Shown in pieces: positions 7,103 through 50,470 of a DNA stretch of 61,169 bases. Location of the stretch: NCBI GenBank assembly GCA_017405965.1, contig JAFQZK010000025.1:1-61169 (forward strand), written 5' to 3'. Made by a program: the position numbers and the translations under genes. This stretch comes from Muribaculaceae bacterium. Lineage in GTDB: Bacteria; Bacteroidota; Bacteroidia; Bacteroidales; Muribaculaceae. The notes under the pieces are model-generated. The model was not told the DNA's origin. It searched no databases and saw only the letters and a program-made list of their open reading frames with translations. Numbering within the stretch: the stretch's first letter is position 1; every line of letters begins with the position of its first letter.

Positions 7103-7137
7103 AGTCTTTTTCTTAAAAAATTAACATTGTGAATTGG

Positions 7138-7187
7138 AATCGCTACAGTGCAGCCGCGATTGCAGAGAGGTCGTTAAAAATGCAATC
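7138..7187 (-). promoter_or_regulatory. Candidate structured leader before rpsD (competing stems)
   Basis: In the rpsK-rpsD gap the minus-strand RNA can pair GATTGCA (7187-7181) with TGCAATC (7164-7158). Alternatively it can pair AATCGC (7161-7156) with GCGATT (7143-7138). Both use the same AATC, so they exclude each other. This suggests a switch, possibly S4-responsive, but no ligand evidence is visible. Confidence 0.35.
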
Positions 7188-7275
7188 CATTCACTGATAG
7201 AGATTCGCGAAAAAAGTTTGTTAATAAAAACTGTTGTTAATACAGTAAGTGATTTGCGTGAAGCGCCTAAATCTC

Positions 7276-8498: not shown

Positions 8499-9284
8499 TC
8501 AAATGAATCGTTCTCCCAGCACTTCCTTGATGGGTTCAAAGGAGGAAAGGATGTCGGGCTTGCCGTGGTGGATGGCAATCGAGTGCTCGAAGTGGGCACT
8601 GGGCTTGCGATCCCTGGTGCGGGTGGTCCAGCCGTCGCGCTCGGTGACGATGTTCTTGCTGCCCATGTTGATCATGGGCTCGATGGCGATCGTCATGCCG
8701 TTGCGCAGCAGGGGGCCGGTGCCGCGGCGTCCGTAGTTGGGAACCTCGGGGTCCTCGTGCAGCTTGCGTCCCACGCCGTGTCCGCACATCTCGCGCACGA
8801 CGCTGTAGTTGCGACGCTCGCAGTACATCTGGATGGCGTTACCGATATCGCCGATGCGCTTGCCGGGCACTGCGTGCTCGATGCCGACATAGAGCGATTC
8901 CTTGGTGGTGCGCAGCAGCTGCAGAGTCTCCTCGGCAACCTCTCCCACACAGAAGGTGTAGGTGCTGTCTCCGTTGAACCCCTCGGGGGTGACGGCACCG
9001 CAGTCACAGGATACGATGTCGCCATCCTCGAGCACGTAGTTCGACGGGATGCCGTGCACTACAACCTCGTTGACCGAGGTGCAGAGCGTGGCGGGAAAGC
9101 CATACAGCCCTTTGAAGCCGGGCAGACAGCCTTGAGAGCGGATATACTCCTCGGCGATTTGGTCCAGTCGGCGCGTGGTCACACCGGGGGCGACCCACTT
9201 GGCCACCTCGGCCAGAGTGTGAGCCACGACCATGTTGGCCTTGCGCAGCAACTCGATTTCCTCGTCTGTCTTGAGATATATCAT
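8499..9284 (-). CDS. map: Type I methionine aminopeptidase
   Basis: This 261-residue metallopeptidase removes the initiator Met from nascent proteins. The metal ligands are all visible: Asp in SCDCGA, Asp in GDSTYTF, His in GHGVGR, Glu in IEPMIN and Glu in FEHSIAI. The substrate-binding His is in VVHGIPS. It lies 36 bp after secY, coupling translocation and N-terminal processing genes in the operon. Confidence 0.97.
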   Translation of the reverse strand: MIYLKTDEEIELLRKANMVVAHTLAEVAKWVAPGVTTRRLDQIAEEYIRSQGCLPGFKGLYGFPATLCTSVNEVVVHGIPSNYVLEDGDIVSCDCGAVTPEGFNGDSTYTFCVGEVAEETLQLLRTTKESLYVGIEHAVPGKRIGDIGNAIQMYCERRNYSVVREMCGHGVGRKLHEDPEVPNYGRRGTGPLLRNGMTIAIEPMINMGSKNIVTERDGWTTRTRDRKPSAHFEHSIAIHHGKPDILSSFEPIKEVLGERFI

Positions 9285-37476: not shown

Positions 37477-37635
37477 CAACTTTTTCTTGAATCACATCCC
37501 CCCGGCAATCCTATCCCATAGTCCCATCATCACACAACACTATGAGAAACCGCCACATGCACCTTGTTTTTGATGAAAAATGGGCAAAAAACTATAATTA
37601 ATTGCAGTTTTTATTGTCAAGAAAACAAATTGCAG

Positions 37636-37643
37636 TATCTTTG
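37636..37643 (+). promoter_or_regulatory. -7 promoter box for the ECF-like membrane protein gene
   Basis: TATCTTTG lies 42 bp before ATG 37685. An AT-rich TTTATTG about 20 bp upstream may be a weak -33 box. Confidence 0.6.
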
Positions 37644-37684
37644 TCGCTTAAGATAACACTAAAAACCACAAATCAAGCCACATT

Positions 37685-38263
37685 ATGCAACGTGCGGTAA
37701 AATTAATCGGATTAGCACTGATATATGTACTCGCCTTCGTCCTCGTCGAGGTTTTCGGCGGAATGCACCCCTACGCATGGACCTACAGCGCTGTACCCGC
37801 TGCCCTGATTGCAGCATGGCCCTATTTCAAACTGTGTGAGCGTTACCCGCTGCCGGGCATCGCCATGTTGTGCGCCATCCTCCTGCTGATGGTCAACTTC
37901 CTCATCGGCCAGGGCCATGAGATTTTTGCCATCGGATGCCTCGTGCTCGGATTTATCGCCGAGGGCTTCCGCAAGCTGTGGGGGAACTACCGCGGCCGCA
38001 AAGGCACGATCGCCAGCTATGCCGTCCTGTCGCTCATGCCGTTCACCAAGACCTGCGTCTGGTGGATTGACTTCGACATTGCCAAGGAGATGAACATCCC
38101 CAACTATCTCGACGTGTACTATGCAACCCATGGCCGCATGCTCAACTTCGACATCCTGATAACTATGATTATCGTCACGCTCGTGCTGGCCGTAGGCATC
38201 ATGTGGTTCTTTACCCGCAATTGGAACCCGCGCGAGCAATACCACGTCATCATCGAGGACTAA
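37685..38263 (+). CDS. Membrane protein, MptD-like ECF transporter S component
   Basis: This 192-residue protein has about six hydrophobic segments (GLALIYVLAFVLVEVF, AMLCAILLLMVNFLIG, IFAIGCLVLGFIAEGF, ASYAVLSLMPF and ITMIIVTLVLAVGIMWFFT). The layout resembles the MptD/Trep_Strep group of putative substrate-binding S components of ECF transporters, which sit in the membrane and need an ATPase module encoded elsewhere. The substrate is unknown. A strong hairpin follows at 38286-38316. Confidence 0.5.
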   Translation: MQRAVKLIGLALIYVLAFVLVEVFGGMHPYAWTYSAVPAALIAAWPYFKLCERYPLPGIAMLCAILLLMVNFLIGQGHEIFAIGCLVLGFIAEGFRKLWGNYRGRKGTIASYAVLSLMPFTKTCVWWIDFDIAKEMNIPNYLDVYYATHGRMLNFDILITMIIVTLVLAVGIMWFFTRNWNPREQYHVIIED

Positions 38264-38285
38264 TAATCATCTTTACAGTATAGAC

Positions 38286-38316
38286 ACGGGGCAAGAGAGC
38301 TGTTCTCCTGCCCCGT
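38286..38316 (+). terminator. Terminator after the ECF-like gene
   Basis: ACGGGGCA and TGCCCCGT form an 8-bp GC-rich stem, with a further GAGA/TCTC pairing inside, followed by TTTT. It separates the gene from the tRNA-Ser promoter. Confidence 0.8.
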
Positions 38317-38430
38317 TTTCATTGTCCGAGCCAAATGTGCAATAACCAAAGGCCCAGCAACTTAGCCGCATAGCAAAATGTTTTTTCAAAAAAAATCGGG
38401 CAAAACTCTTGCAGGTATCAAAAAAAGCAG

Positions 38431-38438
38431 TACCTTTG
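38431..38438 (+). promoter_or_regulatory. Promoter -7 box for tRNA-Ser
   Basis: TACCTTTG matches TAnnTTTG, with CTTG (38408-38411, one mismatch from TTTG) 19 bp upstream. It lies about 35 bp before the tRNA. Confidence 0.65.
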
Positions 38439-38472
38439 CAGTCGCTATTGAAAATACTTTCAGCTAGCTTCC

Positions 38473-38559
38473 GGAGAGGTGGGTGAGTGGCTGAAACCAG
38501 CAGTTTGCTAAACTGCCGTAGGGGTAACTCTACCGCAAGTTCGAATCTTGTCCTCTCCG
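38473..38559 (+). tRNA. tRNA-Ser (GCT anticodon)
   Basis: The 87-nt sequence begins GGAGAGG and pairs with CCTCTCC at 38552-38558. The anticodon stem is GCAGT/ACTGC with loop TTGCTAA, so the anticodon is GCT (38507-38509) and it reads AGC and AGU. A long variable arm (GTAGGGGTAACTCTAC) is typical of serine tRNAs. CCA is not encoded. Its 3' end faces the repeat-rich island, which fits use as an integration site. Confidence 0.95.
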
Positions 38560-38683
38560 CCTTTGAACAACCGACCGCGACAGCGGTTGGTTGTTTTGTT
38601 ATAGGGGTGACGCCGAGTTTACTCGAGCGCACCCCTATAACAAAACAACCAAAAGATTGCGCAGCAATCGGTTGTTCAAAGGC
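38559..38683. repeat. Nested inverted repeats downstream of tRNA-Ser
   Basis: The outer arms are 15 bp (GCCTTTGAACAACCG at 38559-38573 and its complement at 38669-38683). The inner arms are 21 bp and perfect (38589-38609 and 38630-38650), with a further CGAGT/ACTCG stem in the middle. A 12-bp hairpin at 38566-38595 (one G·U), followed by TTGTT, could end the tRNA transcript, and GATTGC/GCAATC (38655-38669) adds another. The arms begin exactly at the tRNA 3' end. Confidence 0.85.
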
Positions 38684-38802
38684 AGCGCCCCCGCGGGAGC
38701 GCACAAGATGCACGAGCGCAGCGAGTGAATCTTGTCGCCCCGCTGCTCGCGCACTCACATTCTAAATCAAAGAAACGCGGTTGATTTACCGCAAAGGTAA
38801 AC
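38684..38802. other. Spacer with imperfect copy of the tRNA-Ser 3' end
   Basis: No gene is seen. GAATCTTGTC at about 38727-38741, followed by CGCCCCGC, imperfectly repeats the tRNA 3' sequence GAATCTTGTCCTCTCCGC. It could be a decayed attachment-site duplicate. The rest is GC-rich and palindromic. Confidence 0.4.
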
Positions 38803-38829
38803 CAACCGACTGATGCTTCAAAAGACGTC
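38803..38829 (-). repeat. Array repeat copy R0 (partial)
   Basis: CAACCGACTGATGCTTCAAA followed by AGACGTC resembles the end of the array repeat (CAACCGCCTATGCCTTGAAA then AGACG). It overlaps the stop codon of the membrane protein gene, so this gene too is followed by a repeat. Only this end of the repeat is recognisable. Confidence 0.5.
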
Positions 38830-39192
38830 ATATATCCAAGTAGCCATAAATCCAATTGATAAGACTAAATAGACTATTGACTCTATCATTAATATCTTTC
38901 TTTTTTGTTCTTTATTGAATAGATTCCTAAAGGAAAGATGAGAAATCAATGTTGATAGGCCAAGAAGCAAAAGTGATGCTAATAAGATAAACGCACATCT
39001 CCAGATAGCAATTCCAGGCATTGCCTCTTGTAGAGTTTCTTCTGTGCCCAGATAAAAGAAAGAACAAACAAATAAAACTGGAATGGCAATGATCAGAATT
39101 GAAAATTTCATGAAGAAGAAAGTTCCTTTATTCCTCTTAAAAAGAGAAAAAAGAAGCAGAACGATACCTATTTCAAATAAAAAGTTTAGCAT
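38818..39192 (-). CDS. Small membrane protein (array cassette)
   Basis: A 124-residue AT-rich gene for a protein with about four hydrophobic segments (NFLFEIGIVLLLFSLF, ILIIAIPVLFVCSFFY, AFILLASLLLLGLSTLI and ESIVYLVLSIGFMATWIY). No family is recognised. An ATG at 39192 is preferred to one at 39216 because a CAACTTTG box at about 39215-39222 looks like its promoter. Its stop lies inside repeat copy R0. Membrane topology would suit an immunity protein or transporter accessory, but that is only inference. Confidence 0.55.
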   Translation of the reverse strand: MLNFLFEIGIVLLLFSLFKRNKGTFFFMKFSILIIAIPVLFVCSFFYLGTEETLQEAMPGIAIWRCAFILLASLLLLGLSTLISHLSFRNLFNKEQKRKILMIESIVYLVLSIGFMATWIYDVF

Positions 39193-39263
39193 ATTGCATT
39201 CGGTCATTTCATGCAAAGTTGAAATAATTATTCTATTTGCTCAACTTTTTCGGTGACATATTA

Positions 39264-39340
39264 TTCATGACGCGCTGGTACTCGTCCAGACTTTTATAAT
39301 TTTGGAAAAGTTGCTCAACCGCTTAGACCTTGAAAAGACG
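39264..39340 (-). repeat. Array repeat copy R1
   Basis: A 77-bp core (from TTCATGACGCGCTGGTACTC to TTGAAAAGACG on the plus strand) that differs from copy R2 at about 7 positions. It starts 8 bp after the stop of the lipoprotein gene. Read on the minus strand it translates as LFKV-stop-AVEQLFQNYKSLDE. Confidence 0.9.
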
Positions 39341-39348
39341 TTGTTATA

Positions 39349-39786
39349 TCAGTTATTGTCTATTTTGCTGTCTTTCTTGAAACGAGCCATTTCCTCTTTG
39401 GAATCGGTCTTATACCAAACCATTTCGGACTTTGTGAGTTTGTGGATGTCACACTCGATATAAATCCTGGTTTGCCCATCATGTTCCTTGCCAGTGAAGA
39501 TGTTCATATGTGCTGTTTCACCAACTCGGTAATGAAGGTCAGTAATCGTCCATCCTTCATCAGGCCAATTTGATTCATAAAGCTCAATTCGACCAGAATA
39601 AGAAGTTTCAGGATAGAACACATATTTAACAACACTCGCATCTTGTATTCTACTATCGAATACTTGTGTCCAAATGCCCTCAAGTTTACTTGAGTCAAAA
39701 CTCTTGACATCATCGTCACCGCATGATGCCAAGGAGAACAATGTGAACAGTATTAGGATAAAACCTAAAAACTTTAATTTTCTCAT
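39349..39786 (-). CDS. Small lipoprotein, lipocalin-like (array cassette)
   Basis: This 145-residue AT-rich gene has a signal peptide and lipobox (SLASC). The mature part, with KLEGIWTQVFDS, a beta-rich middle (YSGRIELYESNWPDEGWTI) and IECDIHKLTKSEMVWYKTD, looks like a small lipocalin-type or similar beta-barrel domain (Leu-Glu-Gly-x-Trp opening). A longer frame from 39828 was rejected because it adds residues before the signal peptide. It is directly followed by repeat R1. Confidence 0.6.
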   Translation of the reverse strand: MRKLKFLGFILILFTLFSLASCGDDDVKSFDSSKLEGIWTQVFDSRIQDASVVKYVFYPETSYSGRIELYESNWPDEGWTITDLHYRVGETAHMNIFTGKEHDGQTRIYIECDIHKLTKSEMVWYKTDSKEEMARFKKDSKIDNN

Positions 39787-39893
39787 TTCATTACTCTTGT
39801 TTACATATTCAATACTACTGATTAACACTACTGATTAACGTAGGATAAATGCGATTATTATTTTACTTGCGTTTATTTTTGGGCGATTCATTG

Positions 39894-39970
39894 TTCATGA
39901 CGCGCTGGTACTCGTCCTGACTTTTATAATTTTGGAAAACTTGTTCAACCGCCTATGCCTTGAAAAGACA
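39894..39970 (-). repeat. Array repeat copy R2
   Basis: A 77-bp core nearly identical to R1. It lies 33 bp after the stop of the 138-residue membrane protein gene. Read on the minus strand it gives LFKA-stop-AVEQVFQNYKSQDE and then QRVMNNESPKNKRK-stop. Confidence 0.9.
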
Positions 39971-40002
39971 GAATGACTTATAATCATTATTCTTTATCGC
40001 AT

Positions 40003-40419
40003 TTATCTTGATAGCACTAAAATTCCCATGCCAATAAAAACAACCCATGAAAGAATTAGGAATAGAGCGACTAAAAAACCTTTAATTATCCTGTGTTTTT
40101 CATTTTCGTATTTGCTATTCAGCTCTTTATAGAACTCTTCCGTATCATCAGTGGTATCTGTAGGCATGACTTTAAACATAAACGGAACGCTGATAAGACA
40201 ACAAATAATTATAGAAGCCAACAGATTTGTCTCGGAAATAGTTCCGACGGTAAAAAAAACTAGAATAAAATACAATGACTCAAGATTCAAAAATGGGCAT
40301 ATAGTAGGTATCCGACCTAAATAAAGGTGAGAAAAAACATCCTCTTTTGGCCATCCATAATGGATCAACGCGTGGTATGTTCGATATATGACGTATCTGT
40401 AGAATTCAATAATCAACAT
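40003..40419 (-). CDS. Small membrane protein (array cassette)
   Basis: About 138 residues with several hydrophobic segments (YFILVFFTVGTI, LLASIIICCLISVPFMF and FLVALFLILSWVVFIGMGIL) and an acidic, charged loop between (TDDTEEFYKELNSKYENEKH). No family is recognised. The ATG at 40419 was chosen; a TTG 11 codons upstream is possible. It is AT-rich like its array neighbours and is followed by repeat R2. Confidence 0.5.
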   Translation of the reverse strand: MLIIEFYRYVIYRTYHALIHYGWPKEDVFSHLYLGRIPTICPFLNLESLYFILVFFTVGTISETNLLASIIICCLISVPFMFKVMPTDTTDDTEEFYKELNSKYENEKHRIIKGFLVALFLILSWVVFIGMGILVLSR

Positions 40420-40459
40420 TGCAAGTAGCAAAAGTTGTAATTCTTGTGCCAAGCACTCA

Positions 40460-40578
40460 TTTTCTCTTCTTTTTTGGTGACTTGGATAAATCGTTCTCGT
40501 TCACCAATGTTCATGCAAGCATGGCATCTCTCTTACTTAATCACGCTTTTATTGTACATGAGGCGCTGGCGCTCATCT
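40460..40578 (-). repeat. Array repeat copy R3 (long form, core truncated)
   Basis: Shares 110 bp (40460-40569) with R4, including TTGGATAAATCGTTCTCG and the CATGCAAGCATG palindrome, plus the beginning of the 77-bp core (ATGAGGCGCTGG), which is cut where the antitoxin gene ends. It includes an extra segment of about 75 bp that R1 and R2 lack. Confidence 0.85.
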
Positions 40579-40586
40579 TGCGACTA

Positions 40587-40868
40587 TCATGCCGTCTCCA
40601 TTTCGTGGTAAACTTGCAGAATTGGTGCTTGCAGCGATTCTTCTATGGCAACAACAGTGTCAATCGTGAAGTTATGAGTGCCACGCATCCACTTACTGAT
40701 TTCGGCTTCGCTCTTACCCAACATCATAGCTAAGTCTTTTTGGCGAAGGCCACGAGCGAGAAGAATTTCATGAATCCTGTCAACAATTTGGAATGAAAGA
40801 GCGACTCGCTCTCTCGTCTCGGCACTAACATGCTTGCGACGTTCGTCTATTATTCTACTCCGTTTCAT
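40587..40868 (-). CDS. HTH (XRE) antitoxin of a HigBA-type pair
   Basis: This 93-residue protein has an XRE-type helix-turn-helix at about residues 35-75 (LARGLRQKDLAMMLGKSEAE then ISKWMRGTHNFTIDT). It should neutralise the partner toxin and, with it, repress the pair's promoter. It overlaps the toxin gene by 14 bp, in the toxin-first order of HigBA systems. It is directly followed by repeat R3. Confidence 0.75.
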   Translation of the reverse strand: MKRSRIIDERRKHVSAETRERVALSFQIVDRIHEILLARGLRQKDLAMMLGKSEAEISKWMRGTHNFTIDTVVAIEESLQAPILQVYHEMETA

Positions 40869-41298
40869 CTCTGCTAAAATTTAAGTCTCCAATAATCTCT
40901 TTATCCACCAAAACAATCGTGCCGTTCTTAATCCGCGAAGAAATGAATCGACTCGTGTCAATAAGTAGTTTAACGTATGGTGCAAGTTCCTCGCTTTCTT
41001 CCCAAGTGGAAGCATCTTTTACTCCACCGTTGCCAAACACAAGAATCTTGTCCGAAAGTCTCAAGGAGTACAACCGTACTTTGTTACCAACATCAATCGG
41101 GATCACACCCACACCATCGCCATAACGACCTCTTGGACGAAAATAGCGTTCAAGCGCACCTGACTCGGCTATCTTGTCAAGCCAAGCTACGATGACATCA
41201 ATTTCGTCGTCATATTCACACCCTATCGGGAATTTCTCGAAAAACTTTTCCAGTTCAGTCAGTTCTTCGTCCTCCAAGCGGATGCTGTAGAAATTCAC
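40855..41298 (-). CDS. HigB/RelE-like toxin with 5' nonsense codon
   Basis: The open frame starts at GTG 41298 and codes 147 residues. The C-terminal half (KVRLYSLRLSDKILVFGNGG) matches RelE/HigB-like beta strands that form the ribosome-dependent mRNA nuclease fold. The frame seems to continue upstream as MKQFY, a TAG stop, then IDLIEEYPN before the GTG. This gives an ATG at 41343 and a nonsense codon at 41328-41326. The toxin may be disabled, weakened or restarted at GTG. The operator palindromes and promoter lie upstream. Confidence 0.6.
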   Translation of the reverse strand: MNFYSIRLEDEELTELEKFFEKFPIGCEYDDEIDVIVAWLDKIAESGALERYFRPRGRYGDGVGVIPIDVGNKVRLYSLRLSDKILVFGNGGVKDASTWEESEELAPYVKLLIDTSRFISSRIKNGTIVLVDKEIIGDLNFSRDETE

Positions 41299-41346
41299 AT
41301 TAGGATATTCTTCAATTAGATCTATCTAATAAAACTGTTTCATTCT

Positions 41347-41423
41347 TAACTTTTAAGTTATCTTGGTGCAAAAATAAAGCCAAGATCTGAATATGCCAAA
41401 TAAATTAACTTAAAAATTAAGTT
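41347..41423 (-). promoter_or_regulatory. Toxin-antitoxin promoter with paired palindromic operators
   Basis: TATTTTTG (minus strand, 41376-41369) is a -7 box. It is enclosed by ATCTTGG/CCAAGAT arms (41360-41366 and 41380-41386). On either side are palindromes sharing the AACTT/AAGTT half-site: TAACTTTTAAGTTA (41347-41360) and AACTTAAAAATTAAGTT (41407-41423). This is the layout expected for autoregulation by the HTH antitoxin. Confidence 0.65.
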
Positions 41424-41432
41424 TAGGCATTA

Positions 41433-41604
41433 TTTTCTCTTCTTTTTCGGTGATTTGGATAAATCGTTCTCGCTCGGCAATGCTCATGCAAGCATGGCAA
41501 TGCGCTCATTTAATCACGATTTTATTGTTCATGAGGCGCTGGTACTCGCCCCGAATTTTATAATTTTGGAAAAGTTGTTCAACCGCGTATGCCTTGAAAA
41601 GACG
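41433..41604 (-). repeat. Array repeat copy R4 (long form)
   Basis: The most complete copy: the 110-bp part shared with R3 (41433-41542), overlapping the 77-bp core at 41528-41604. It lies 8 bp after the stop of the dockerin/FISUMP gene. On the minus strand it reads without a stop as RLFKAYAVEQLFQNYKIRGE, then EYQRLMNNKIVIK-stop. Confidence 0.9.
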
Positions 41605-41612
41605 TTGCTGCA

Positions 41613-43046
41613 CTAATTCTGCGAGACACGCACAGGTCGGATGCTTAAGCCAAAACAGCGTTCCTGTTTGTTCCAACCAGGGTTGCTGCCCGAAAAGAAA
41701 AGTTGGTTGTAAGCATAAAGCGACATGCCATAGTACAGCGAGTGTGACCAATAGTAGCCGAATTCGCCTTCACTGACGATCCTGGTCCCATCTTTATAAC
41801 CTGCGGCCGGCAAGAACAAAGTCTTTCCGCTAGGGCCAGTGCCCAAATACCCATTCACGCCGTTCATCGTCGTCCACTGCCAATTGCAGTGCTCGTGCAG
41901 TTCGTCCTGTTGAGCCTTGGTCGGCATTTGCCACGACAGTCCCCAGTTCGCTTGGGCGGCATCGTCAGCAGGTTCCAGTTCGTTCTTATTGTCAACTGTG
42001 CCATAATAGTTCTGGAAATTATACTTCGTCAGAGAGTCCCATGTGCCTTTGCACCACTTGTAGTTTTCCCAGGTATAGGTCTCCTTGGGTGAGGTCTCTC
42101 CCCAAGCGAAGTAGCTGCCGTATTGCTCGGGACTGCTTGCACCGATGTTGCATGTGGCCCAGAGCGTGCCGCTGGGCAGGCCCAGGTCAACATATTCATG
42201 ATCAGGAGACGGTGCACCGCCCCCCAGGATGATGTCGATAATCTCGTTCACGTCGGCGATGTTGACTTCACCGTCGCTGTTGACGTCGGCGCTCGGGTAG
42301 CTGCCGCTGCTCAGGATCATGTCAATCACAGCATTGACGTCGGCAATGTTGACTTCGCCATCATTGTTGACATCGCCTTTAATGCCGCTGCCATTGCGAG
42401 AGATGATGATCTTATCGGGAATCTGCTGGTTACCACAATAGATGCAATAACCATAGCCTGTATTTTCGAAATAAGCATCCTCAGGATAAGTGATGGTGCA
42501 ATCCTTCAGGGTAATGCCCTCACCGATTCTGCCAACCTCACCTTTGATAGTGGCCTGAACGTTGTCGAATGTGAGCGCTACACCATTGCCTTCACCATTA
42601 TTGGCAATACCGTTGACAGTGTTTATTGTAATGTCCTCGATAGTCAGCCGTGTACAAACAAGGAAAATATCAATCCACGTGCTGGAGGTGGAAAGGGTGC
42701 CATTGCCCTTGATGGTCACATTCTTGGAGTTATAGCTGTCTAATGCGATAGCCACAAACCCGTTGGTGGTCAGGCTACACTGTCCAAGGACAACGATTGT
42801 TGCCTGATCGGCGGTAAGACGGATAGGCCGAATGTTATCATATTTATTATCGGTATTGTATTCAATAACGGCATTGTTCAGCGTGAGTGTGTTTGTTGTC
42901 GCATTCCATGTGACCGTGCCGCTCTTGATAAAAGGACTGTTAAATCGACCGTCTCCATCGGGAGAAACTCCACACACCGTCACTTGCGCAGCAGCGCTCA
43001 TGGCAACCATGAACAGCGCAAACAATAATAAGAAGTTCTTTTTCAT
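41613..43046 (-). CDS. Secreted protein with dockerin-like repeats and FISUMP domain
   Basis: This 477-residue protein has a signal peptide (FLLLFALFMVAMSAAAQ). Residues about 25-220 form a parallel-beta or carbohydrate-binding-like region (VTIKGNGTLSTSSTWIDIF). Two calcium-binding dockerin type I-like repeats follow (GDVNNDGEVNIADVNAVIDM and ADVNSDGEVNIADVNEIIDI). The C-terminus is a Fibrobacter-succinogenes-major-paralogous-type domain (VDLGLPSGTLWATCNIGA to SIRPVRVSQN). It is directly followed by array repeat R4. It is less AT-rich than the toxin and membrane cassettes. Function is probably extracellular binding; no cohesin is present here. Confidence 0.75.
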   Translation of the reverse strand: MKKNFLLLFALFMVAMSAAAQVTVCGVSPDGDGRFNSPFIKSGTVTWNATTNTLTLNNAVIEYNTDNKYDNIRPIRLTADQATIVVLGQCSLTTNGFVAIALDSYNSKNVTIKGNGTLSTSSTWIDIFLVCTRLTIEDITINTVNGIANNGEGNGVALTFDNVQATIKGEVGRIGEGITLKDCTITYPEDAYFENTGYGYCIYCGNQQIPDKIIISRNGSGIKGDVNNDGEVNIADVNAVIDMILSSGSYPSADVNSDGEVNIADVNEIIDIILGGGAPSPDHEYVDLGLPSGTLWATCNIGASSPEQYGSYFAWGETSPKETYTWENYKWCKGTWDSLTKYNFQNYYGTVDNKNELEPADDAAQANWGLSWQMPTKAQQDELHEHCNWQWTTMNGVNGYLGTGPSGKTLFLPAAGYKDGTRIVSEGEFGYYWSHSLYYGMSLYAYNQLFFSGSNPGWNKQERCFGLSIRPVRVSQN

Positions 43047-43108
43047 AAGCTATTATATTTAATGGTTTATTGGTTTATCATTCTCGTTAAAAGAGCCATT
43101 GGATGCGT

Positions 43109-43876
43109 TCAGTTCTGGAATCTCTCCCGAGCCTCAAGAATCAGCAATTCGGCCTTCTTGAACTCATCCCGCATCTCGTCTTCGAGGGTATCCCTCTCAG
43201 GGGTGACTTTGTGGCTCGACTGCTGCTCACTGAATTCAATCAAATCTTTTTCGCTCACGCCCATCATCACCATGCAGTTATCACGAATGGCTTTCATGTC
43301 ATGCAAGAAAGACCAAGCAATGAATGAATATTCCGGAAAGTCCGCATTTAACAACAACGATTTTAAGGATGTGAAGACAGCTTTCGACTCAACATCATCC
43401 CTCAACCTGTCCAATACCTCATTTTTGTATTTACTGCGCAAGCCATAGAATGACGATACCTCATTGACGAAGTTGACGTTGCCAATGGTGCTGAAAGTCT
43501 CGATACTGGTAGAGAAAATCTTTTCGGTCGTTTCAGGGTAATTCTCATTGATTAGCGTTATAGCCGGTAAAAACTTGCTGCGCAGCTCATTGAACTTTTC
43601 GGGATGGAGCACCAATTCCTGCTCGGCACTACTAGCCTCGCGCAGAGCAGTATCGGCTTTCTGCATGAACTCTATCGTCTTGTCAAAGTCGCAGATGACC
43701 ATCATCACCATTTCCTTCTTGGCCGACTGTTTCTTGTTGTAGTCGATGATGGCTGCCGTGCCAAAGGTGAGCACAATCGATATTGTAGTGGCGATAAGCG
43801 ACAGCAGAAACTGCTTGGCAGTAGCGATTCCACTGCCCGACTTCAGCGTGCTGGGTGTATGTAACTTGACATTCAT
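43109..43876 (-). CDS. Membrane-anchored helical protein of unknown function
   Basis: This 255-residue protein has one N-terminal membrane segment (QFLLSLIATTISIVLTFGTA) followed by charged helices (EMVMMVICDFDKTIEFMQKA to ELLILEARERFQN). The long open frame starts at 43954, but a TATCTTTG box at 43903-43910 places the transcript start near 43897, so ATG 43876 is chosen. No family is recognised. It lies after the 2122-residue protein and degenerate repeat R5, and upstream of the dockerin/FISUMP gene with a 62-bp gap. Confidence 0.55.
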   Translation of the reverse strand: MNVKLHTPSTLKSGSGIATAKQFLLSLIATTISIVLTFGTAAIIDYNKKQSAKKEMVMMVICDFDKTIEFMQKADTALREASSAEQELVLHPEKFNELRSKFLPAITLINENYPETTEKIFSTSIETFSTIGNVNFVNEVSSFYGLRSKYKNEVLDRLRDDVESKAVFTSLKSLLLNADFPEYSFIAWSFLHDMKAIRDNCMVMMGVSEKDLIEFSEQQSSHKVTPERDTLEDEMRDEFKKAELLILEARERFQN

Positions 43877-44101: not shown

Positions 44102-47100
44102 TCAACGCAGCACCTTGCGTGAGTTGCGGCTGCCGTCGCTATAGGTGGTCACAATGATGTTGAAACCGTCAAACGGCTTGCTGCTCTCGACACCCATCAT
44201 GTTGTAGTAACGTACATTCACGACGGTGCGGGCAGTGGTCACCTCTTCGACGGTGGTCACATTACCCATGCTGCTGCCGTTGGAGCCGGCGGGGCTGGCC
44301 TCGATCGGGAAGATGATGAACTTGCTGTCTTCCAAACCCTCATAGTCACGGGTGAAGTACATGTTGGCATAGTTACCCTGACCATTGCCGTCACGACGAG
44401 GAGCGTTCTTGACATTGACTTTTTCATTGTCGCCTTCATCGCCATTGCCGGGGGCGTAGCACTCGTTGGGTTCGTAGCCTTCGCCATTACCACGGGCATA
44501 GCGGATGATGGCCTTGAGCTTGTAGGCTTGTCCAGGCTGGAAGATCTGCCACCAGGCCATGCCCACCGAATCCATGTCAAAGAGCGACCAGTTGACCTTC
44601 ACAGCGCCATATTGCATGTAGCCGTTGCTGTAAGGACCGTATTCCTGACCATAGCCACCCAGGGCATTGTCAAGCTGATCGCCGCTCAGGTACTGCAAAT
44701 CGTTGTACTTATCACCGGGAATGACAATACTGCGATCCCAGTTCATGGGAGCATAGAAGCGTCCCGGGTCAACAGGCTGCTCAAGGGCTACCGAAGTGAA
44801 GGGTCGATACTCACCCGAGACGTAGTCGCCATAAGGTCGTATGCCACTGCTCGGGTTGATCTCATTCAGGTTGTCATAGACAATCCAGGTGATGTAAGCA
44901 ATCTCCTGGGGCTTCGGAGCGACATAGTACATCTTGTAAGGCTCATCCTCTACCCTGGTTCGAGTCACCGTTCCATAGAGGACTTCACCGGTCTCGGGGT
45001 CAGTTTCCCACTGGATGCTGGGTTTGGTCCTGTAAGTGCCCTCATAGCTGTCGGGCTGCCATTCAGGATGGGCATAGTTGAACACGATGGTGTCGTTGAA
45101 ACTGGCCGATACATAGACGTTGGGCTCATAGGACATCGTGCGGCCCATACCGATCTTGAGCACATGGGCGGTGGGGTTGATGGTGTCGGTCATGAACACG
45201 TCGAGCGTTCCCGCGGGGATGATGTGTCCCACATAGTCGGCCAGAGCCGGACGCTGACTCTCCTCGACAGGCAGTGCAGAGCCACCGTCATAGTTGGGCG
45301 ACATGACGAGCTTCACCCAGTTACTCTGGTCATAGCTCGTCTTCTTGTCCATGATCTGCGAACGGCCAGGAGTGTGGCTGCTGTAGCAGATGTCATAGAC
45401 ATAGTCGGTATAGGTCGAATCGGGCTTGACTGATTTCTCGCCGTAGAGGTTGAGATCCTTGGCATACAGGGCACCAGTGACATAAATCGTATCGGGCTTG
45501 CCCGAGATGCCGGTAATCTCGATGGGCGTCACGGCATCCCTGTCGTAGTAAACTGCCAGCAGGTCGTTGCTCACGGTGTAGCGCACCTCCTCGGCCGCAG
45601 TGCGGATGAGGTTGTTGAGCGTGTAGGCACCGTCAAACAGACCCAGGTAGTCAAACACGCCACCGTTGACGAATTCAAAGTCACCGGTCTGTTCCTTGGT
45701 CTCGTCGAACTCGTTGGGATTACCGTCGTTGAAGATGACGTTGTCGGGCGGGTTCATCGCGTTGCCATGAGCATCGATGAGGATGCCGAAGTCGTACCTC
45801 CAAACTTCATAACCGGTTACCGGGTCAATACCCACGCACTCGCAGGGTCGGCCGGGCCAATCCTGCACATCGCGGCCATAACCGTCATGGTAGTGGCCGG
45901 AGGAGTTGTTGTCCCAAGCATAGCAATAGACGTTCTCCCAGCCCACGGTGTTGATGAAGTAGGCATAGTAGTGTCCCTCCATGACCACAGCGTTGGTGGG
46001 CAGTGCATTGGCCGAGTAGTCGAAGTACTCGCGGGTGTGATCGGTCATCACCGAGGTGCCGTTCGACTCATCCCAGGTAACCCACAACAGGCCGGAATGG
46101 CGCTGGATGGTGTCGCTCTGATTAGGAGCCTTATTGGTGCGGGTGAAGAACAGGTCACAGATCGAGGCGTGCACTTGCCAGTGCCACCATTTCTTGCCAT
46201 CGGCAGTGATGGTGTCGCCCAGATAGTCCACATTGTAGAAATTGGTGTTGCTCCAAGTGCCGTTCTGGCGGTTGTAGGCACTCAGGGGCCAAGCACCGCC
46301 TTCAAACATCTCATGGGTGTAGGTCGTGCCCGGATTCTGAATGTTGGAGATCTCGACGTTTTCGGTCTGCTCCAGATACACATTCATGGGCGAGAGCATG
46401 GAGTGGTCGGTCTTGATGAGTTTAACCCAATGCTCGGTGGTGTTCACCAGGACGTTGTAAACGCCGGCCGTGAGCATCCTGTACTCGCCGTAGGTATCAC
46501 TCCACAGGCCCAACGAGAGGTTGTGGTTGGCCATGGCGTCGGTGAAGCCCAGATAGTTGGTGCCGCCATCGTTGACGGTGTATCCGTCGGCACCGCCGTT
46601 ACCATAGCGGATTCCCACATGACTCCAGTCATCGCCCAGAGCGGTCGAGAAGCAGAAGGTGGCGTTGTTGCTCAAAATCACATTGTTCAGGTAGTAGGTC
46701 TGCGAGCTGCTGTCATACTTGAGCTGAGCGGCATTACTGCTGCTGTAGTTGTACTCCGTCGTGCCGATGATGTAAGTACCGTGCATGTACAGATTGTCGG
46801 CGACAGGCGAGGGCTCCACATTGTACAACTCGTAGTAGTTGAACTCCTCGTCGTCTTTCCTGACGGTGTTCCACTTGATGTAGTAGGTACCCGGGGAGAT
46901 ATTGGTGATGTCCTTGGTCTTGGAACCGTCGCCACCGCCACTGACAATGGCACCGACCAGATCGACCGAAGAAACACCACGCCAACGATACCAGTTGTTG
47001 CCGTCGTGCAGCGTCTCGATGCTGTCAGCACCAAGCGCAGTACCGGGATAGGGATCAGTCAGGGCAATGGTATTGCCTTCCCAAACGTAGATGTAAGGCG

Positions 47101-50100
47101 TCACGCTGGGATCGTCGGGCAGGATGTAGAAGGTGTAATCGTAGTAGGGCAGGTCGCCGGCTACCTTGAACAGCATGTTGGCGGGGTCAAAGTAGATGGT
47201 CACCGTGCCGGGAGCGACATGAATCTGGTAAGCGCCGCCATCGTTGCCGCCAGCCAGCTGGGTGCTCTGCCAGTTACCGTTGAGGCTCACGTTCTGGTTA
47301 CCGACGGTGGGACCGTAGCGGTATTGGGAATTGAAGGTATCCCAGTCGGCTGCCGTGTTGTTGTCGGCGAACACGAAGCTATAGGTACCCTGCTCGGTCA
47401 CGTTGGCCGTGTAAGAGTAAACACCCGTCGTGGGATCGAAGGTCATTGCCGTCGTGGGCGCATAGGTCCATCCAAGTCCCAATCCGTCTGAACCCACGAT
47501 GTAGTAGGTGCCCATATTATCGGCCTGGATGAGGGTGAGGTCGTAATTCACATTCGCGCCGTCGAAGGTCACAGTCAGCGTGTAGGTACCGTCATGCGGC
47601 ACATCCAGATTGATGTTGTCGGCAGGTCTCCAAGAGCCGTCATCGCCGTTGACTTTGAAGGCATACTCGCCGTCTCTGGTCAAGTGGACGTTGCTGGCAG
47701 TCCAGGTATAGGTGCCGGTCTGGCTGTCGTAAGTCATTTTGCCGGCCTCGCTCTGAGTCCAGATAGCGCCAAACAGATCCTCGTCATTACCCACAACGTA
47801 ATAGATGATCGGAGGCGTGGTTCCTTCAACCTTGTACTGCATGTTGATTGCATCGAAGTAGAAGGTCATTGTGCCGGCGCCAGCCACAACGCTGTAGGAA
47901 CCGTTGTCGCCGCCAGCCTTCTGGGTAGCGGTATAGCCGCTGTTGAGGGTATAAACCACGTCACCATTGTTGGGGCCGATGCGATAGGTGTTGTTGAAAA
48001 CAGTCCAGTCGGCATTCTGCCCGTCGGCAAAGACAAATTGTGTCGTGGCCTTGTCGGTCAACGGGGTGGCATAAGAATAGATGCCGTCGCCCTCATAGAC
48101 CATGGCAATGCCCTGGTCACATGAGAAACCGCCCAAGACGCCGTCACCAGTGATGTAAACAGTGGCGGGAGCCGTCATCGTCAGCGTGTGGCTGAGGGTT
48201 CCGTCGCTGTTGAGGGTGATGGTCACGGTATAGGTACCGCTCATGGGCACGTTGATAATGGCGTTGTCGCCGTTGCTGTCGCCAATCCACACGCCCTCGT
48301 TGGTGCCATCGTTGCCATAGGCCTTGTAGCCGTACTCTCCCCTAGTCAGGGTCAAGCCCGTAAAGGTCTTGCTGTAGCTGCCGTCACCGTTGGAGGTCAT
48401 CTGAGTGCCCTCGGTGCTCCAAGCGTTGAAATCACTCTCGGCATAATACACGATAGCGGGGTCGGCAGCCGCATTGGGGCCACTGATGGTGTTGCCGCCG
48501 CCATAGGTGAAGTAGCTCGTGCCGGGGGCTATAGCCAGGCTCTGGGTTTGAGTCGTATTGTCGCCCTCGTCAAAAATCAGGCTGAGCGAGGCATAGCTGG
48601 AACCTGTCAGCGTGTACTTGTAGTAGGTGTAACCGTTGATGGCCTCGGTGGAGAAAGCAGCATCGGTCAAAGCGGTGCCGGGGAAGCCGCCCAGCAGCTC
48701 ATCACTGCCGTTCCACAAGTACATGTAAGGCGTTCCGTCGCCCTTATAGCGCACGTAGATGGTGTAATCATAGGTGGGCGCGGGCTCTGGTGCATCGGTG
48801 GTGATGGTATAAGTGTTGTCGTTGACATTCCAGCGGATGTAGTAGGTATCGGGGGCCAGACTGGTGATGTCGGTAGTCTGATAGCCGTTGCCGCCGTTGT
48901 TGACGATGGCATTCATCAGGTTGGCATAGAGCGCACCGGTCCACTTGTACCAGGTGTTGCCGTCGGCAAGTTCTTCGGTATCAACCATCGCCGTGCCTGC
49001 CCAGTCGCCAAGGGGATGGTAGTTGTTATTATTGGTACCCCACAGGTACAGGGTCGGCGTCACGCTGCCGTCGTCGGGCAGGACGTAGAACGTGTAGGTG
49101 TACGTCGGATCGGGCTGAACGAGGTTCAACACGGCGTTGACGGTTCCGTTGTTGCTGTCGTAAGTCACCGTCACAGTGTAAGTGCCGGGAACATCGGCGC
49201 TGAACGTCTGGTTGCCGCTACTGGGGTACCAAGTGCCGTCGGAGCAATAGACACGATACTTGTAATTAGTGTTCTGGATGAGATGGAATTGACCTGAGGT
49301 CCAGGTGTAAACGCCATCCTCATCGGGGTCTGCCATCTGGGTGTTGGTCAAACCAGTGTTCCAGGCATCGGGGAAGATGCTGGTGCTGTCACCCTTGACG
49401 TAGTAATCCTTGGCAATCGTGGGGGCCGTGCCATCAACCTTGTAACGCATATTCGCGACATCCAGGGTGATGGTCACTTGACCGGCGTCCAAAGTCACAG
49501 CATAGCTGCCACCACCTTTCTGCGTCGGAGCCCAGGTGCCCAAGTTCACGGTTTCGTTGCCGCTATTGGGGCCGTAACGGTGGTTGCCGTTAAAATCATC
49601 CCAGGTGCTGCCGCCGCCATCGGCAAATGTGAAGTAGTAGGTGCCGAGAGCAGTGACGTTATAATTGTAGGTATAGATGTCATTGACGTCATCATAGGCC
49701 ATCGTTCTCAGGTTCTGCTGCTGATAGCTGAAACCGCCAAGGCCCAGGCCATTGTCACCAGTGATGTAATAGTTGGGGATAGTCGGGGTGACACTTTTTT
49801 CGGTGACCGTCACATCGACGTTCTTGGTGATGACATTGAAAGAGAAAGTCACATCGGCTTTACCGGTGAATCCCACATTATAGGACTTGTTTGAACTCGG
49901 CCAAGCGTAAGTCCATGCATGGTCTTGATTGACTTTGAACAAATAATTACCGGCGGTGACATCCACGTCGGTGAACGATAGCGTATAGTTGATACCATCG
50001 CTGCTTGTCATGTCATTGTTGGCGTCGTTTTGTCCCCATGAGGAAGCCAGAATTTCGGTTTGGTTTCCGGCCACCGTAAGGGTCTTGAACGGTCCGAACA

Positions 50101-50470
50101 ATGAAACTGAATTGTTGCTTGAGTCAAAGAGATAAACAATACTCCACTGGCCAGTTGAACTCACAGAGTAGCCGTAATCACTGCCTGGGTAAGCCGTACT
50201 CCAATCATGGTTTTTAACGATCTTAAAGGCGTAATCGTTGCTCTGATTGACATTGGCTGTTCTCGCTAAATAATAATAGCTTGAATTTGGATCCTTGGTC
50301 ATGTCGTTTCCTGCATAGTTTTGTGCCCAATTCTGGTTTTGCAGGAAACCGTTGCTGGTACCCGCCACAGTGTAGGTTTGAGCCCACAGCTGCGGCACAG
50401 AGGCGGCCAGGCATAGCAACAATGCTAAAAGCCTGAAGCCTTTGATCTTAGATAATTTTACCTGTTTCAT
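44102..50470 (-). CDS. Giant secreted multimodular protein with glycan-binding-like repeats
   Basis: This 2122-residue protein has a signal peptide (LLALLLCLAASVPQLWAQ). Three related units of about 115 residues, at about 231, 770 and 988, share ITGD or VGSDGLGLG openings, FADG or FADN, and a closing MRYKVDG, MQYKVEG or MLFKVAG. Two other units, at about 460 and 1113, share LPDDGSVTPTLYLWGTN / LPDDPSVTPYIYVWEGN. They look like beta-sandwich starch- or glycan-binding modules (CBM26/SusE-like). From about 1300 the sequence is mixed. It ends with RYYNMMGVESSKPFDGFNII and VTTYSDGSRNSRKVLR, a C-terminal sorting-like tail. Enzyme motifs were not recognised. Confidence 0.7.
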   Translation of the reverse strand: MKQVKLSKIKGFRLLALLLCLAASVPQLWAQTYTVAGTSNGFLQNQNWAQNYAGNDMTKDPNSSYYYLARTANVNQSNDYAFKIVKNHDWSTAYPGSDYGYSVSSTGQWSIVYLFDSSNNSVSLFGPFKTLTVAGNQTEILASSWGQNDANNDMTSSDGINYTLSFTDVDVTAGNYLFKVNQDHAWTYAWPSSNKSYNVGFTGKADVTFSFNVITKNVDVTVTEKSVTPTIPNYYITGDNGLGLGGFSYQQQNLRTMAYDDVNDIYTYNYNVTALGTYYFTFADGGGSTWDDFNGNHRYGPNSGNETVNLGTWAPTQKGGGSYAVTLDAGQVTITLDVANMRYKVDGTAPTIAKDYYVKGDSTSIFPDAWNTGLTNTQMADPDEDGVYTWTSGQFHLIQNTNYKYRVYCSDGTWYPSSGNQTFSADVPGTYTVTVTYDSNNGTVNAVLNLVQPDPTYTYTFYVLPDDGSVTPTLYLWGTNNNNYHPLGDWAGTAMVDTEELADGNTWYKWTGALYANLMNAIVNNGGNGYQTTDITSLAPDTYYIRWNVNDNTYTITTDAPEPAPTYDYTIYVRYKGDGTPYMYLWNGSDELLGGFPGTALTDAAFSTEAINGYTYYKYTLTGSSYASLSLIFDEGDNTTQTQSLAIAPGTSYFTYGGGNTISGPNAAADPAIVYYAESDFNAWSTEGTQMTSNGDGSYSKTFTGLTLTRGEYGYKAYGNDGTNEGVWIGDSNGDNAIINVPMSGTYTVTITLNSDGTLSHTLTMTAPATVYITGDGVLGGFSCDQGIAMVYEGDGIYSYATPLTDKATTQFVFADGQNADWTVFNNTYRIGPNNGDVVYTLNSGYTATQKAGGDNGSYSVVAGAGTMTFYFDAINMQYKVEGTTPPIIYYVVGNDEDLFGAIWTQSEAGKMTYDSQTGTYTWTASNVHLTRDGEYAFKVNGDDGSWRPADNINLDVPHDGTYTLTVTFDGANVNYDLTLIQADNMGTYYIVGSDGLGLGWTYAPTTAMTFDPTTGVYSYTANVTEQGTYSFVFADNNTAADWDTFNSQYRYGPTVGNQNVSLNGNWQSTQLAGGNDGGAYQIHVAPGTVTIYFDPANMLFKVAGDLPYYDYTFYILPDDPSVTPYIYVWEGNTIALTDPYPGTALGADSIETLHDGNNWYRWRGVSSVDLVGAIVSGGGDGSKTKDITNISPGTYYIKWNTVRKDDEEFNYYELYNVEPSPVADNLYMHGTYIIGTTEYNYSSSNAAQLKYDSSSQTYYLNNVILSNNATFCFSTALGDDWSHVGIRYGNGGADGYTVNDGGTNYLGFTDAMANHNLSLGLWSDTYGEYRMLTAGVYNVLVNTTEHWVKLIKTDHSMLSPMNVYLEQTENVEISNIQNPGTTYTHEMFEGGAWPLSAYNRQNGTWSNTNFYNVDYLGDTITADGKKWWHWQVHASICDLFFTRTNKAPNQSDTIQRHSGLLWVTWDESNGTSVMTDHTREYFDYSANALPTNAVVMEGHYYAYFINTVGWENVYCYAWDNNSSGHYHDGYGRDVQDWPGRPCECVGIDPVTGYEVWRYDFGILIDAHGNAMNPPDNVIFNDGNPNEFDETKEQTGDFEFVNGGVFDYLGLFDGAYTLNNLIRTAAEEVRYTVSNDLLAVYYDRDAVTPIEITGISGKPDTIYVTGALYAKDLNLYGEKSVKPDSTYTDYVYDICYSSHTPGRSQIMDKKTSYDQSNWVKLVMSPNYDGGSALPVEESQRPALADYVGHIIPAGTLDVFMTDTINPTAHVLKIGMGRTMSYEPNVYVSASFNDTIVFNYAHPEWQPDSYEGTYRTKPSIQWETDPETGEVLYGTVTRTRVEDEPYKMYYVAPKPQEIAYITWIVYDNLNEINPSSGIRPYGDYVSGEYRPFTSVALEQPVDPGRFYAPMNWDRSIVIPGDKYNDLQYLSGDQLDNALGGYGQEYGPYSNGYMQYGAVKVNWSLFDMDSVGMAWWQIFQPGQAYKLKAIIRYARGNGEGYEPNECYAPGNGDEGDNEKVNVKNAPRRDGNGQGNYANMYFTRDYEGLEDSKFIIFPIEASPAGSNGSSMGNVTTVEEVTTARTVVNVRYYNMMGVESSKPFDGFNIIVTTYSDGSRNSRKVLR

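Follow-up and report, generated by a model that had tools for sequence, protein, structure and literature searches.

A cassette array at a serine tRNA gene

In the window (the whole 61,169-nucleotide stretch of DNA that was analysed), five gene units lie on the minus strand, and the end of each gene directly precedes one copy of a common repeat (Table 1). Counted in 500-base windows, GC content is 34–45% across 38.5–41.5 kb, 42–52% from 41.5 to 44 kb and mostly 50–65% farther away. Both patterns, same-strand units with repeats (R0–R4) on their 3′ sides and an AT-rich stretch between GC-rich flanks, had been described in an earlier note on this DNA and were borne out, with the repeats lying where it had placed them. 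Its reading of two repeat features was corrected: R0 is a complete hairpin site that closes the array, and the extension common to R3 and R4 is a ~67-bp insertion inside the repeat. No known family matched the membrane protein F9. The head dockerin gene, which we take to be of the FISUMP type, has counterparts that occur as cassettes elsewhere (families F21 and F36); the DUF names of the small genes are likewise presumed labels.

Table 1. Features of the array and its surroundings (positions in the window)
Feature	Position	Strand	Remarks
tRNA-Ser(GCT)	38,473–38,561
R0 (site H), array-end terminator-like hairpin with overlapping promoter motif CTTTT-N20-TACCTTTG	38,776–38,828	−	T-tract; motif spacing 20; compensatory pairs
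Part of the repeat shared by R0	38,803–38,828		First ~26 nt only
F9 cassette gene, 129-aa membrane protein	38,818–39,207	−	ORF 100% identical (nt) in relative L131
116-nt repeat family copy	39,224–39,339
R1, joint repeat J: hairpin left half, linker, tape-measure gene 3′ end	39,233–39,340	−
F2 cassette gene, 145-aa lipoprotein	39,349–39,786	−
116-nt repeat family copy	39,854–39,969		83%
R2, joint repeat J	39,863–39,970	−	48/57 aligned positions match phage tape-measure 3′ end
F5 cassette gene, 138-aa membrane protein	40,003–40,419	−	149 aa if upstream TTG start
R3, tape-measure 3′ end with ~67-bp MITE-like insertion	40,459–40,579	−	Hairpin half not recognisable
R3/R4 extension	40,459–40,574 and 41,432–41,547		86% identity
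HTH_3 antitoxin-like gene of pair (PADLOC candidate PDC-M64)	40,587–40,868	−	Copy in phage slot L213, 83% protein identity
Toxin-like partner gene (PDC-M64)	40,855–41,298	−	Partner in prophage slot L213, 85% protein identity
R4, joint repeat J with same ~67-bp insertion as R3	41,432–41,604	−
116-nt repeat family copy	41,488–41,603		72%
Dockerin gene at array head	41,613–43,046	−

The repeat recurs across the genus and the cassettes move

Used as a query, R1 matched six further copies in a second array of the same genome (contig C28, 7,904–12,524; best E = 5e-33), so the repeat family is not a product of chance. The second array terminates in an R0-like site at 7,013. With at most four candidates scored per genome, the repeat or its right half was found in 55 genomes of the genus, this one included; nine of the 55 reach no better than E 5e-5 to 4e-3, and many of the matches span the tape-measure half (see below) alone. 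By our own count, both halves (a match from position ≤5 to ≥78) are present in at least 35 genomes of the genus.

At the same chromosomal site of a close relative (L131), beside the same tRNA-Ser, the genes stand in another order, and the two cassettes in common with the window are 99.8–100% identical against 95–96% for the flanking genes. The cassettes therefore move. (A further locus, L113, duplicates L131 and was dropped from later counts.) The lipoprotein F2 is present in five genomes, each time with different neighbours. Across the arrays, 126 cassettes fall into 77 families, counts in which L162 and L263, probably one contig to judge by their matching feature spacing, are included twice. 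The longest ORF runs in the array direction in 119 of the 121 cassettes with a plus-strand ORF of at least 60 aa, and median GC is 37% in cassettes versus 53% in flanks. Variable content at this tRNA-Ser and the repeat behind unrelated genes had both been suggested as checks and were both found, and the proposal of a one-directional mobile cassette array was upheld by the altered order and content in the relative. Our cargo table holds 73 families, two of its entries being non-cargo (the gene MIL, described below, and an overlapping ORF); 71 entered the protein comparisons, of which one matches a transposase.

Probable origin of the repeat in a phage cargo slot

The joint repeat J is a fusion of phage sequences: on its left, the left half of a terminator hairpin with promoter motif, and on its right, the final ~57 bases of a tape-measure gene, whose product was recognised with a PHROG E value of 3e-56. 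The "new repeat family" of the earlier note is accordingly no new family of recombination sites; it is a tape-measure gene end joined to half a phage terminator. A short conserved peptide encoded by the repeat itself was considered and rejected, the open frame being the tape-measure C-terminus; this frame is broken in some copies (S3, by eye). No source is known for the linker of J, which as an exact pattern had no match in IMG/VR; the hairpin left half matches one IMG/VR contig. J has not yet been seen in any virus-classified contig, the prophage loci that carry it coming from bacterial assemblies, and the array DNA had no match among 50,697 phage records. The tRNA-Ser gene was rejected as an attachment site: no direct repeat of ≥25 nt involving it was found within 37,500–43,500.

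In related prophages, a single cargo (moron) gene follows the tape-measure gene and precedes the next one, MIL, with one of the two repeat pieces on either side of the cargo. The order tape-measure end, T site, cargo, H site and full-length MIL was found in ten loci (L163, L164, L190, L191, L250, L253, L267, L268, L272 and L273), and also in L271, where the start of MIL is disturbed. Two prophage loci, L116 and L230, hold several cassettes joined by J, with MIL frameshifted in L230, and remnants consisting of a tape-measure fragment, an array and an N-terminal MIL fragment are common. MIL is present in 75 of 101 genomes of the genus and matched no known family; judged by its place, it is presumably a tail gene. 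The toxin–antitoxin pair of the window is the cargo of one prophage slot (L213, Table 1), the only match to a phage slot for any of the six window proteins among the loci compared.

As in a moron, the cargo is inserted between conserved phage genes and is absent from some relatives. Of 30 MIL loci, 28 include the N-terminus: 17 with cargo, 4 without and 7 undecided. In the four cargo-free loci the tape-measure stop abuts MIL and the hairpin was not found. In this scoring, H was recorded as missing from three cargo loci; one of them, L202, does have it (it is the same locus as L271), and L212 and L224 show the hairpin by eye. Among 27 IMG/VR loci, a MIL-like gene stands directly behind the tape-measure stop in 20, a different gene does so in L165, L166 and L173, and in L174 a gap of 655 nt precedes MIL.

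These loci bear on another reading, in which the repeats would descend from a small transposable element (MITE) whose decayed copies lie dispersed between genes. Such an element would account for the ~67-bp palindromic insertion in R3 and R4, and similar inserts were seen by eye in L052 and L053. In the mapped arrays, however, the core repeat keeps to one orientation at the ends of genes and includes the tape-measure gene end, and the cargo enclosed by its two halves lies between one and the same pair of phage genes. We regard a MITE origin of the repeats as extremely improbable.

Promoter motif and terminator-like hairpin

All 67 of 67 H sites are followed by at least four T in 9 nt, against 17% of random positions, and six of the nine stem pairs show compensatory changes, in 38 of 79 aligned H sites; the full hairpin is lost in J copies. 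The cargo promoter motif TAnnTTTG is present in 76 of 110 cassettes (shuffles, 4.2%). Upstream of MIL, 22 of 28 loci have CTTTT-N20-TAnnTTTG, its spacing always 20 although 10–30 was allowed; the four cargo-free ones all lack it. The motif also occurs in 61 of 79 H sites (spacing 20 in 60 of 61) and in 1 of 85 J copies; the pattern behind the H-site count partly fixes the spacing at 20, and the count upstream of MIL was made without such a pattern. By these sequence signals, the cargo appears to have its own promoter, and its own terminator in the H site with T-rich tail and compensatory stem pairs, as expected of a moron. From the motif, its spacing and the U-tract, we infer that the hairpin would terminate the cargo transcript while carrying a promoter motif that faces MIL. 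If confirmed, this overlap of terminator and promoter motif would account for the placing of cargo immediately after the tape-measure gene without silencing the next gene.

Breakpoints and recombinases

The same-strand cassettes with 3′ repeats could also be moved by an unseen tyrosine recombinase acting at CGTCTTTTCAAG-spacer-CGGTTGA, in the manner of an integron. Recombination breakpoints were compared for pairs passing a filter (right-hand, 28/99; left-hand, 20/99), their positions being interval-censored and blurred by conserved sequence. J–J breakpoints cluster at 0–22 nt on the left-hand side and scatter over 11–119 nt on the right. Ten of the 12 passing left-hand J–J breakpoints and most J-versus-H breakpoints lie at 0–28 nt, near the variable spacer, as a site-specific enzyme would predict, and such an enzyme could also explain the many passing breakpoints in the first 26 nt. 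Against it stand the scattered positions of the eight passing right-hand J–J breakpoints (11, 13, 24, 43, 49, 54, 80 and 119 nt) and the several among 20 filter-failing ones that point to 52–117 nt. The variable spacer makes better sense as that of a promoter, its length being constant at 20.

In L055 and L128 the array-end site is followed at ~300 bp by the gene of a 453-aa recombinase, but this gene occurs in 16 of 101 genomes, and of 14 best loci two adjoin an array end and one more lies ~7 kb from a T site; after inspection of the best loci of 14 of the 16 carrier genomes, we rejected it as the array integrase. No integron integrase (TIGR02249) scored over the cut-off in any of the 101 genus genomes. 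Sub-cut-off matches occur in 99 of 101, as any tyrosine recombinase gives. Site-specific movement is, in our view, unlikely. The integron-like array of the earlier note stands as to its mobile same-strand cassettes and finds no support as to integron membership, given the 0/101 integrases and a promoter motif of their own in most cassettes.

The earlier note had also suggested a recombinase-associated (rAID) island whose recombinase was lost or separated. The hallmarks given in PMC12247911, short genes of low GC that point the same way and have conserved sequence between them, are seen here. In this incomplete assembly, however, none of seven tyrosine recombinases (PF00589) lies on either array contig (C20 and C28); no immunity family was recognised among the window proteins; and the intergenic sequence is phage-derived. 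Among 71 cargo proteins there is one SUFU protein. We consider rAID membership highly improbable.

Probable tandem arrays of phage morons

The reading that best explains the arrays, and does so with good probability, is that phage morons are strung in tandem as cassettes, which arrays would trade with one another and with infecting phages through homologous recombination. A phage origin of the cassettes is well supported; the recombination route would run as follows. Source phages would carry one cargo gene between the tape-measure gene and MIL, with a promoter motif just past the tape-measure stop, before the cargo, and behind the cargo a hairpin that would end its transcript and direct a promoter motif toward MIL. 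J may have arisen through a deletion that once brought the hairpin of one slot directly up against the tape-measure 3′ end of a second slot. J shares homology with both flanks of slot and cassette, so that cargo could be added, swapped or lost through homologous recombination with other arrays or incoming phages, and the arrays would have stayed on the chromosome of the host, a rumen-type Prevotellaceae bacterium, after phage decay. Several observations count against this reading: the window holds no tape-measure or MIL fragment besides the repeats, no tape-measure end was seen before its head gene, the toxin–antitoxin pair alone of the six window proteins has a phage-slot match among the loci compared, J had no match in IMG/VR and its linker no known source, and many breakpoints lie in the first 26 nt.

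The cargo (membrane proteins, lipoproteins, a toxin–antitoxin pair) would most likely serve to protect or change the lysogen, the exclusion of other phages being one example. More tentatively, and at somewhat less than an even chance, the slot with its composite terminator-promoter, fused into joint repeats, may form an integrase-free gene-capture platform through which bacteria bank phage-borne, perhaps anti-phage, genes in arrays that grow, and trade them back to infecting phages; recombination homology would then do the job of the integrase in integrons. Among the matches listed, no title or start of an abstract of open-licence PMC papers mentioned tandem moron arrays. The moron reading suggests a route by which cassette arrays resembling those of integrons could arise from the cargo slot of a prophage with no integrase involved, and it links the pool of unnamed envelope genes of these bacteria to phages. 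It also opens two questions to testing: whether the arrays serve as libraries of genes for phage exclusion or immunity, and whether phages that arrive load and unload them.

Comparison with known systems

Like the rAID islands of Bacteroidales, the array has short, co-oriented, low-GC genes and conserved intergenic sequence; unlike them, it has no adjacent tyrosine recombinase that we found, and none of the window proteins was recognised as T6SS immunity. With integrons and CALIN (integrase-less cassette clusters) it shares same-strand cassettes of gene plus 3′ repeat, reordered between relatives. It differs from them in that most cassettes have their own promoter motif, no integrase scored over the cut-off, the repeat consists of phage coding sequence with half a terminator attached, and right-hand J–J breakpoints scatter.

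Ltp of phage TP-J34, a superinfection-exclusion lipoprotein, is likewise lipoprotein cargo on a prophage and is considered a moron; the window lipoprotein is likened to it by type of cargo, not by sequence. In the related phage TP-EW, primers placed in int and orf3 amplified the ltp gene, which therefore has another location in the phage.

Phage morons, finally, share with the present cassettes variable cargo between two conserved phage genes, their own promoter motif and terminator hairpin, and absence from some relatives. Descriptions usually have one or a few morons per prophage. Prophage morons are treated in PMC3952083 and PMC6379469; unlike the usual ones, the cassettes here are chained by a common joint repeat and kept as tandem arrays outside prophages.

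Organization of the array and its sister array

Read along the minus strand, the array runs from a dockerin (FISUMP-type) gene through repeat R4, a toxin–antitoxin pair, R3, a membrane protein gene, R2, a lipoprotein gene, R1, a second membrane protein gene and R0 to tRNA-Ser. The window lies on contig C20 of its genome (3.6 Mb, 40 contigs), and a search of that genome revealed a second array on contig C28. That array matches in layout: it opens with a dockerin gene, continues through six cassettes, every one with a copy of the repeat in front of it, and closes with a hairpin site. The same-strand gene units with individual repeat copies described in the earlier note are confirmed. Dockerin genes recur at the head of arrays or immediately in front of a hairpin site; these and other individual features are collected in the table.

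Coordinates of individual features in the window and at other loci (L numbers)
Feature	Locus	Position	Remarks
Dockerin (FISUMP-type) gene	window	41613-43046	
Dockerin (FISUMP-type) gene	L051	12533-13969	
Dockerin (FISUMP-type) gene	L055	7985-9595	
Inverted repeat	window	38587-38652	strong; just downstream of tRNA-Ser; 32-nt arms, 2-nt loop, 88% complementary
2,122-aa ORF	window	44102-50470	upstream of array; signal-like start, many similar-looking internal stretches
MITE-like insertion	window	40459-40574 and 41432-41547	~67 bp, palindromic, within tape-measure end
Insert resembling the MITE-like insertion	L052	~7130-7260	by eye; another locus of the genome
Insert resembling the MITE-like insertion	L053	~8750-8870	by eye; another locus of the genome
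~70-bp insert	L051	~1100-1250	within decayed MIL fragment, motif CTGAGGCGCCGCC; inverted copy nearby in decayed tape-measure fragment (both by eye)
453-aa tyrosine recombinase gene	L055	6248-7609	
453-aa tyrosine recombinase gene	L128	11161-12522	
Gap between tape-measure stop and MIL-like gene	L174	after 1967	655 nt

The repeat joins a phage hairpin to a tape-measure gene end

The right half of the repeat consists of the 3′-terminal part of a long gene. The C-terminus it encodes occurs in 27 IMG/VR loci, where it terminates ORFs as long as 1,500 codons. The complete L163 protein matches families of tail tape-measure proteins, with a best E of 3e-56. The tape-measure stop is followed directly (−4 to +21 nt) by an MIL-like gene in 20 of the 27 loci and by a different gene in three. 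In L162, L163 and L164, a cargo gene and then a hairpin follow the stop; a full MIL gene (648–669 aa) lies downstream in L163 and L164, and its N-terminal part only in L162. MIL, the gene after the cargo slot, matched no known family. Searching with it yielded L190 and L191, which have the same layout of tape-measure end, cargo, hairpin and MIL, with a tyrosine integrase following in L191. The 655-nt gap in L174, one of the 27 loci and a phage contig outside this group, is possibly another cargo slot.

The left half of the repeat is the left half of the phage-slot hairpin. Because the repeat halves match the slot hairpin and the tape-measure gene, the repeat is a joint (J) of hairpin left half, short linker and tape-measure end. 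The linker occurs 73 times inside J and four times outside, two of the latter resembling partial J. Such a joint probably formed via deletion between two slots.

Hairpin sites at array or slot ends (H) are terminator-like. Six of nine stem pairs show compensatory changes, with both sides changed and pairing kept (38 of 79 H sites aligned), and at least four thymines fall within the next 9 nt in 67/67 sites, versus 17% of random positions. TAnnTTTG follows J or a tape-measure end site (T) in 76 of 110 cassettes, compared with 4.2% in mononucleotide shuffles. The longer motif CTTTT-spacer-TAnnTTTG lies upstream of MIL in 22 of 28 loci, its spacer exactly 20 every time (10–30 allowed), and in J once in 85 copies. 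It is absent upstream of MIL in the four cargo-free loci, as well as in L217, which lies at a contig edge, and L204, whose start is frameshifted. In all four cargo-free loci, the tape-measure stop directly adjoins MIL and the hairpin is lacking. Scoring recovered H in 14 of the 17 loci with cargo. The remaining three are L202, which does carry H, and L212 and L224, where a hairpin is visible by eye. Cargo transcripts would terminate at H, where MIL transcription would restart.

A graded series connects phage to array

A graded series connects phages to the window array. It begins with a single cargo in the slot between tape-measure end and full MIL, and continues with prophage loci holding several cassettes with J among them: L116, which has a 410-aa recombinase besides a full MIL, and L230, in which MIL is frameshifted. 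In the next step, tape-measure fragments precede the array and N-terminal fragments of MIL follow it (for example, L245, L259 and L261); at the end of the series stand arrays without either fragment, such as those of the window, L111, L118 and L131. Cassette families are common to series members: F23 in L230 and L247, F16 in L118 and L245, and F3 in L111/L117 and L249/L266. The strongest link between phage slots and the window is L213, whose cargo is the window's toxin and antitoxin genes (85% and 83% identity), with a full-length MIL (68% identical) and then an ORF resembling an integrase by eye. The remaining four window proteins had no match among the phage-slot loci compared.

Cassette movement and route of spread

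The cassette behaviour is confirmed: cassettes move. At the orthologous site in L131 (uncultured Prevotellaceae RUG278), the head gene and tRNA side are kept and the cassette set differs: lipoprotein F2 directly follows the head gene, the middle is F4, which the window genome carries in its other array, two short ORFs (85 and 84 aa) replace the window's pair, and membrane protein F9 is not in last place. F2 and F9 are 99.8% and 100% identical to their window counterparts, versus 95.2–96.3% for three flanking genes. F2 occurs in five genomes with differing neighbours. Membrane protein F5 is 99.8% identical in two genomes of different species, the window's F5 reaching only 87% against those; F4 is 99.7% identical between two other genomes, with 94–96% for the window genome's copy. 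Script annotation of 71 loci, including one duplicate, gave 90 J, 69 T, 64 H and 25 partial sites; removing the duplicate left 126 cassettes belonging to 77 families, of which 27 have at least two copies.

Among 200 relatives, matches to all or part of the repeat (E ≤ 0.01) came from 59 genomes: 55 belong to the same genus, counting the window's own, and 4 with weak matches lie outside it. Nine of the 55 match weakly (E 5e-5 to 4e-3), and many genus matches are the tape-measure half alone, both halves occurring in at least 35 genomes. Where the closest loci have named records, these are assemblies of uncultured Prevotellaceae, Bacteroidales and Prevotella; RUG in assembly names stands for rumen.

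Cargo probably spreads through homologous recombination. On each side, 99 same-family pairs were compared, and the filter kept 28 breakpoints on the right and 20 on the left. Those between two J copies fell at 11, 13, 24, 43, 49, 54, 80 and 119 nt on the right and at 0, 0, 0, 1, 10, 18, 18, 18, 19, 22, 55 and 108 on the left, with exact positions hidden by conserved stretches. Given this distribution, J can travel with the preceding or the following gene, which fits homologous recombination. The clustering of left-hand breakpoints near the spacer also fits a site-specific enzyme. The assembly's seven tyrosine recombinases all lie off C20 and C28.

A 453-aa tyrosine recombinase gene lies ~300 bp behind an array end and an MIL fragment in two species. 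As the array integrase this candidate was rejected: it is present in only 16 of 101 genomes (E ≤ 1e-60), and when its best locus was inspected in 14 of them, it adjoined an array end only in L055 and L128.

Cargo and comparison with known systems

Cassettes have a median GC content of 37%, versus 53% for flanks. By simple rules, a membrane segment is predicted in 53 of 73 cargo families versus 124 of 331 control ORFs, and a lipobox-like start in 15 of 73 versus 34 of 331. Few of 71 cargo proteins match known families: dockerin (five), aspartyl protease (two), and one match each to families that include GDSL lipase, SUFU, PAD_porph and beta-barrel. The window's toxin–antitoxin pair is a PADLOC candidate, PDC-M64, and the rest of the cargo yielded one further clear PADLOC match, also PDC-M64. 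These data fit, and do not prove, a role of the cargo in altering the lysogen or excluding phages.

The label of integron or recombinase-associated acquired interbacterial defence (rAID) island was not upheld, with TIGR02249 over cut-off in 0 of 101 genomes and both array contigs free of tyrosine recombinases. We file the array instead as phage cargo genes (morons) in a new, array-forming arrangement.
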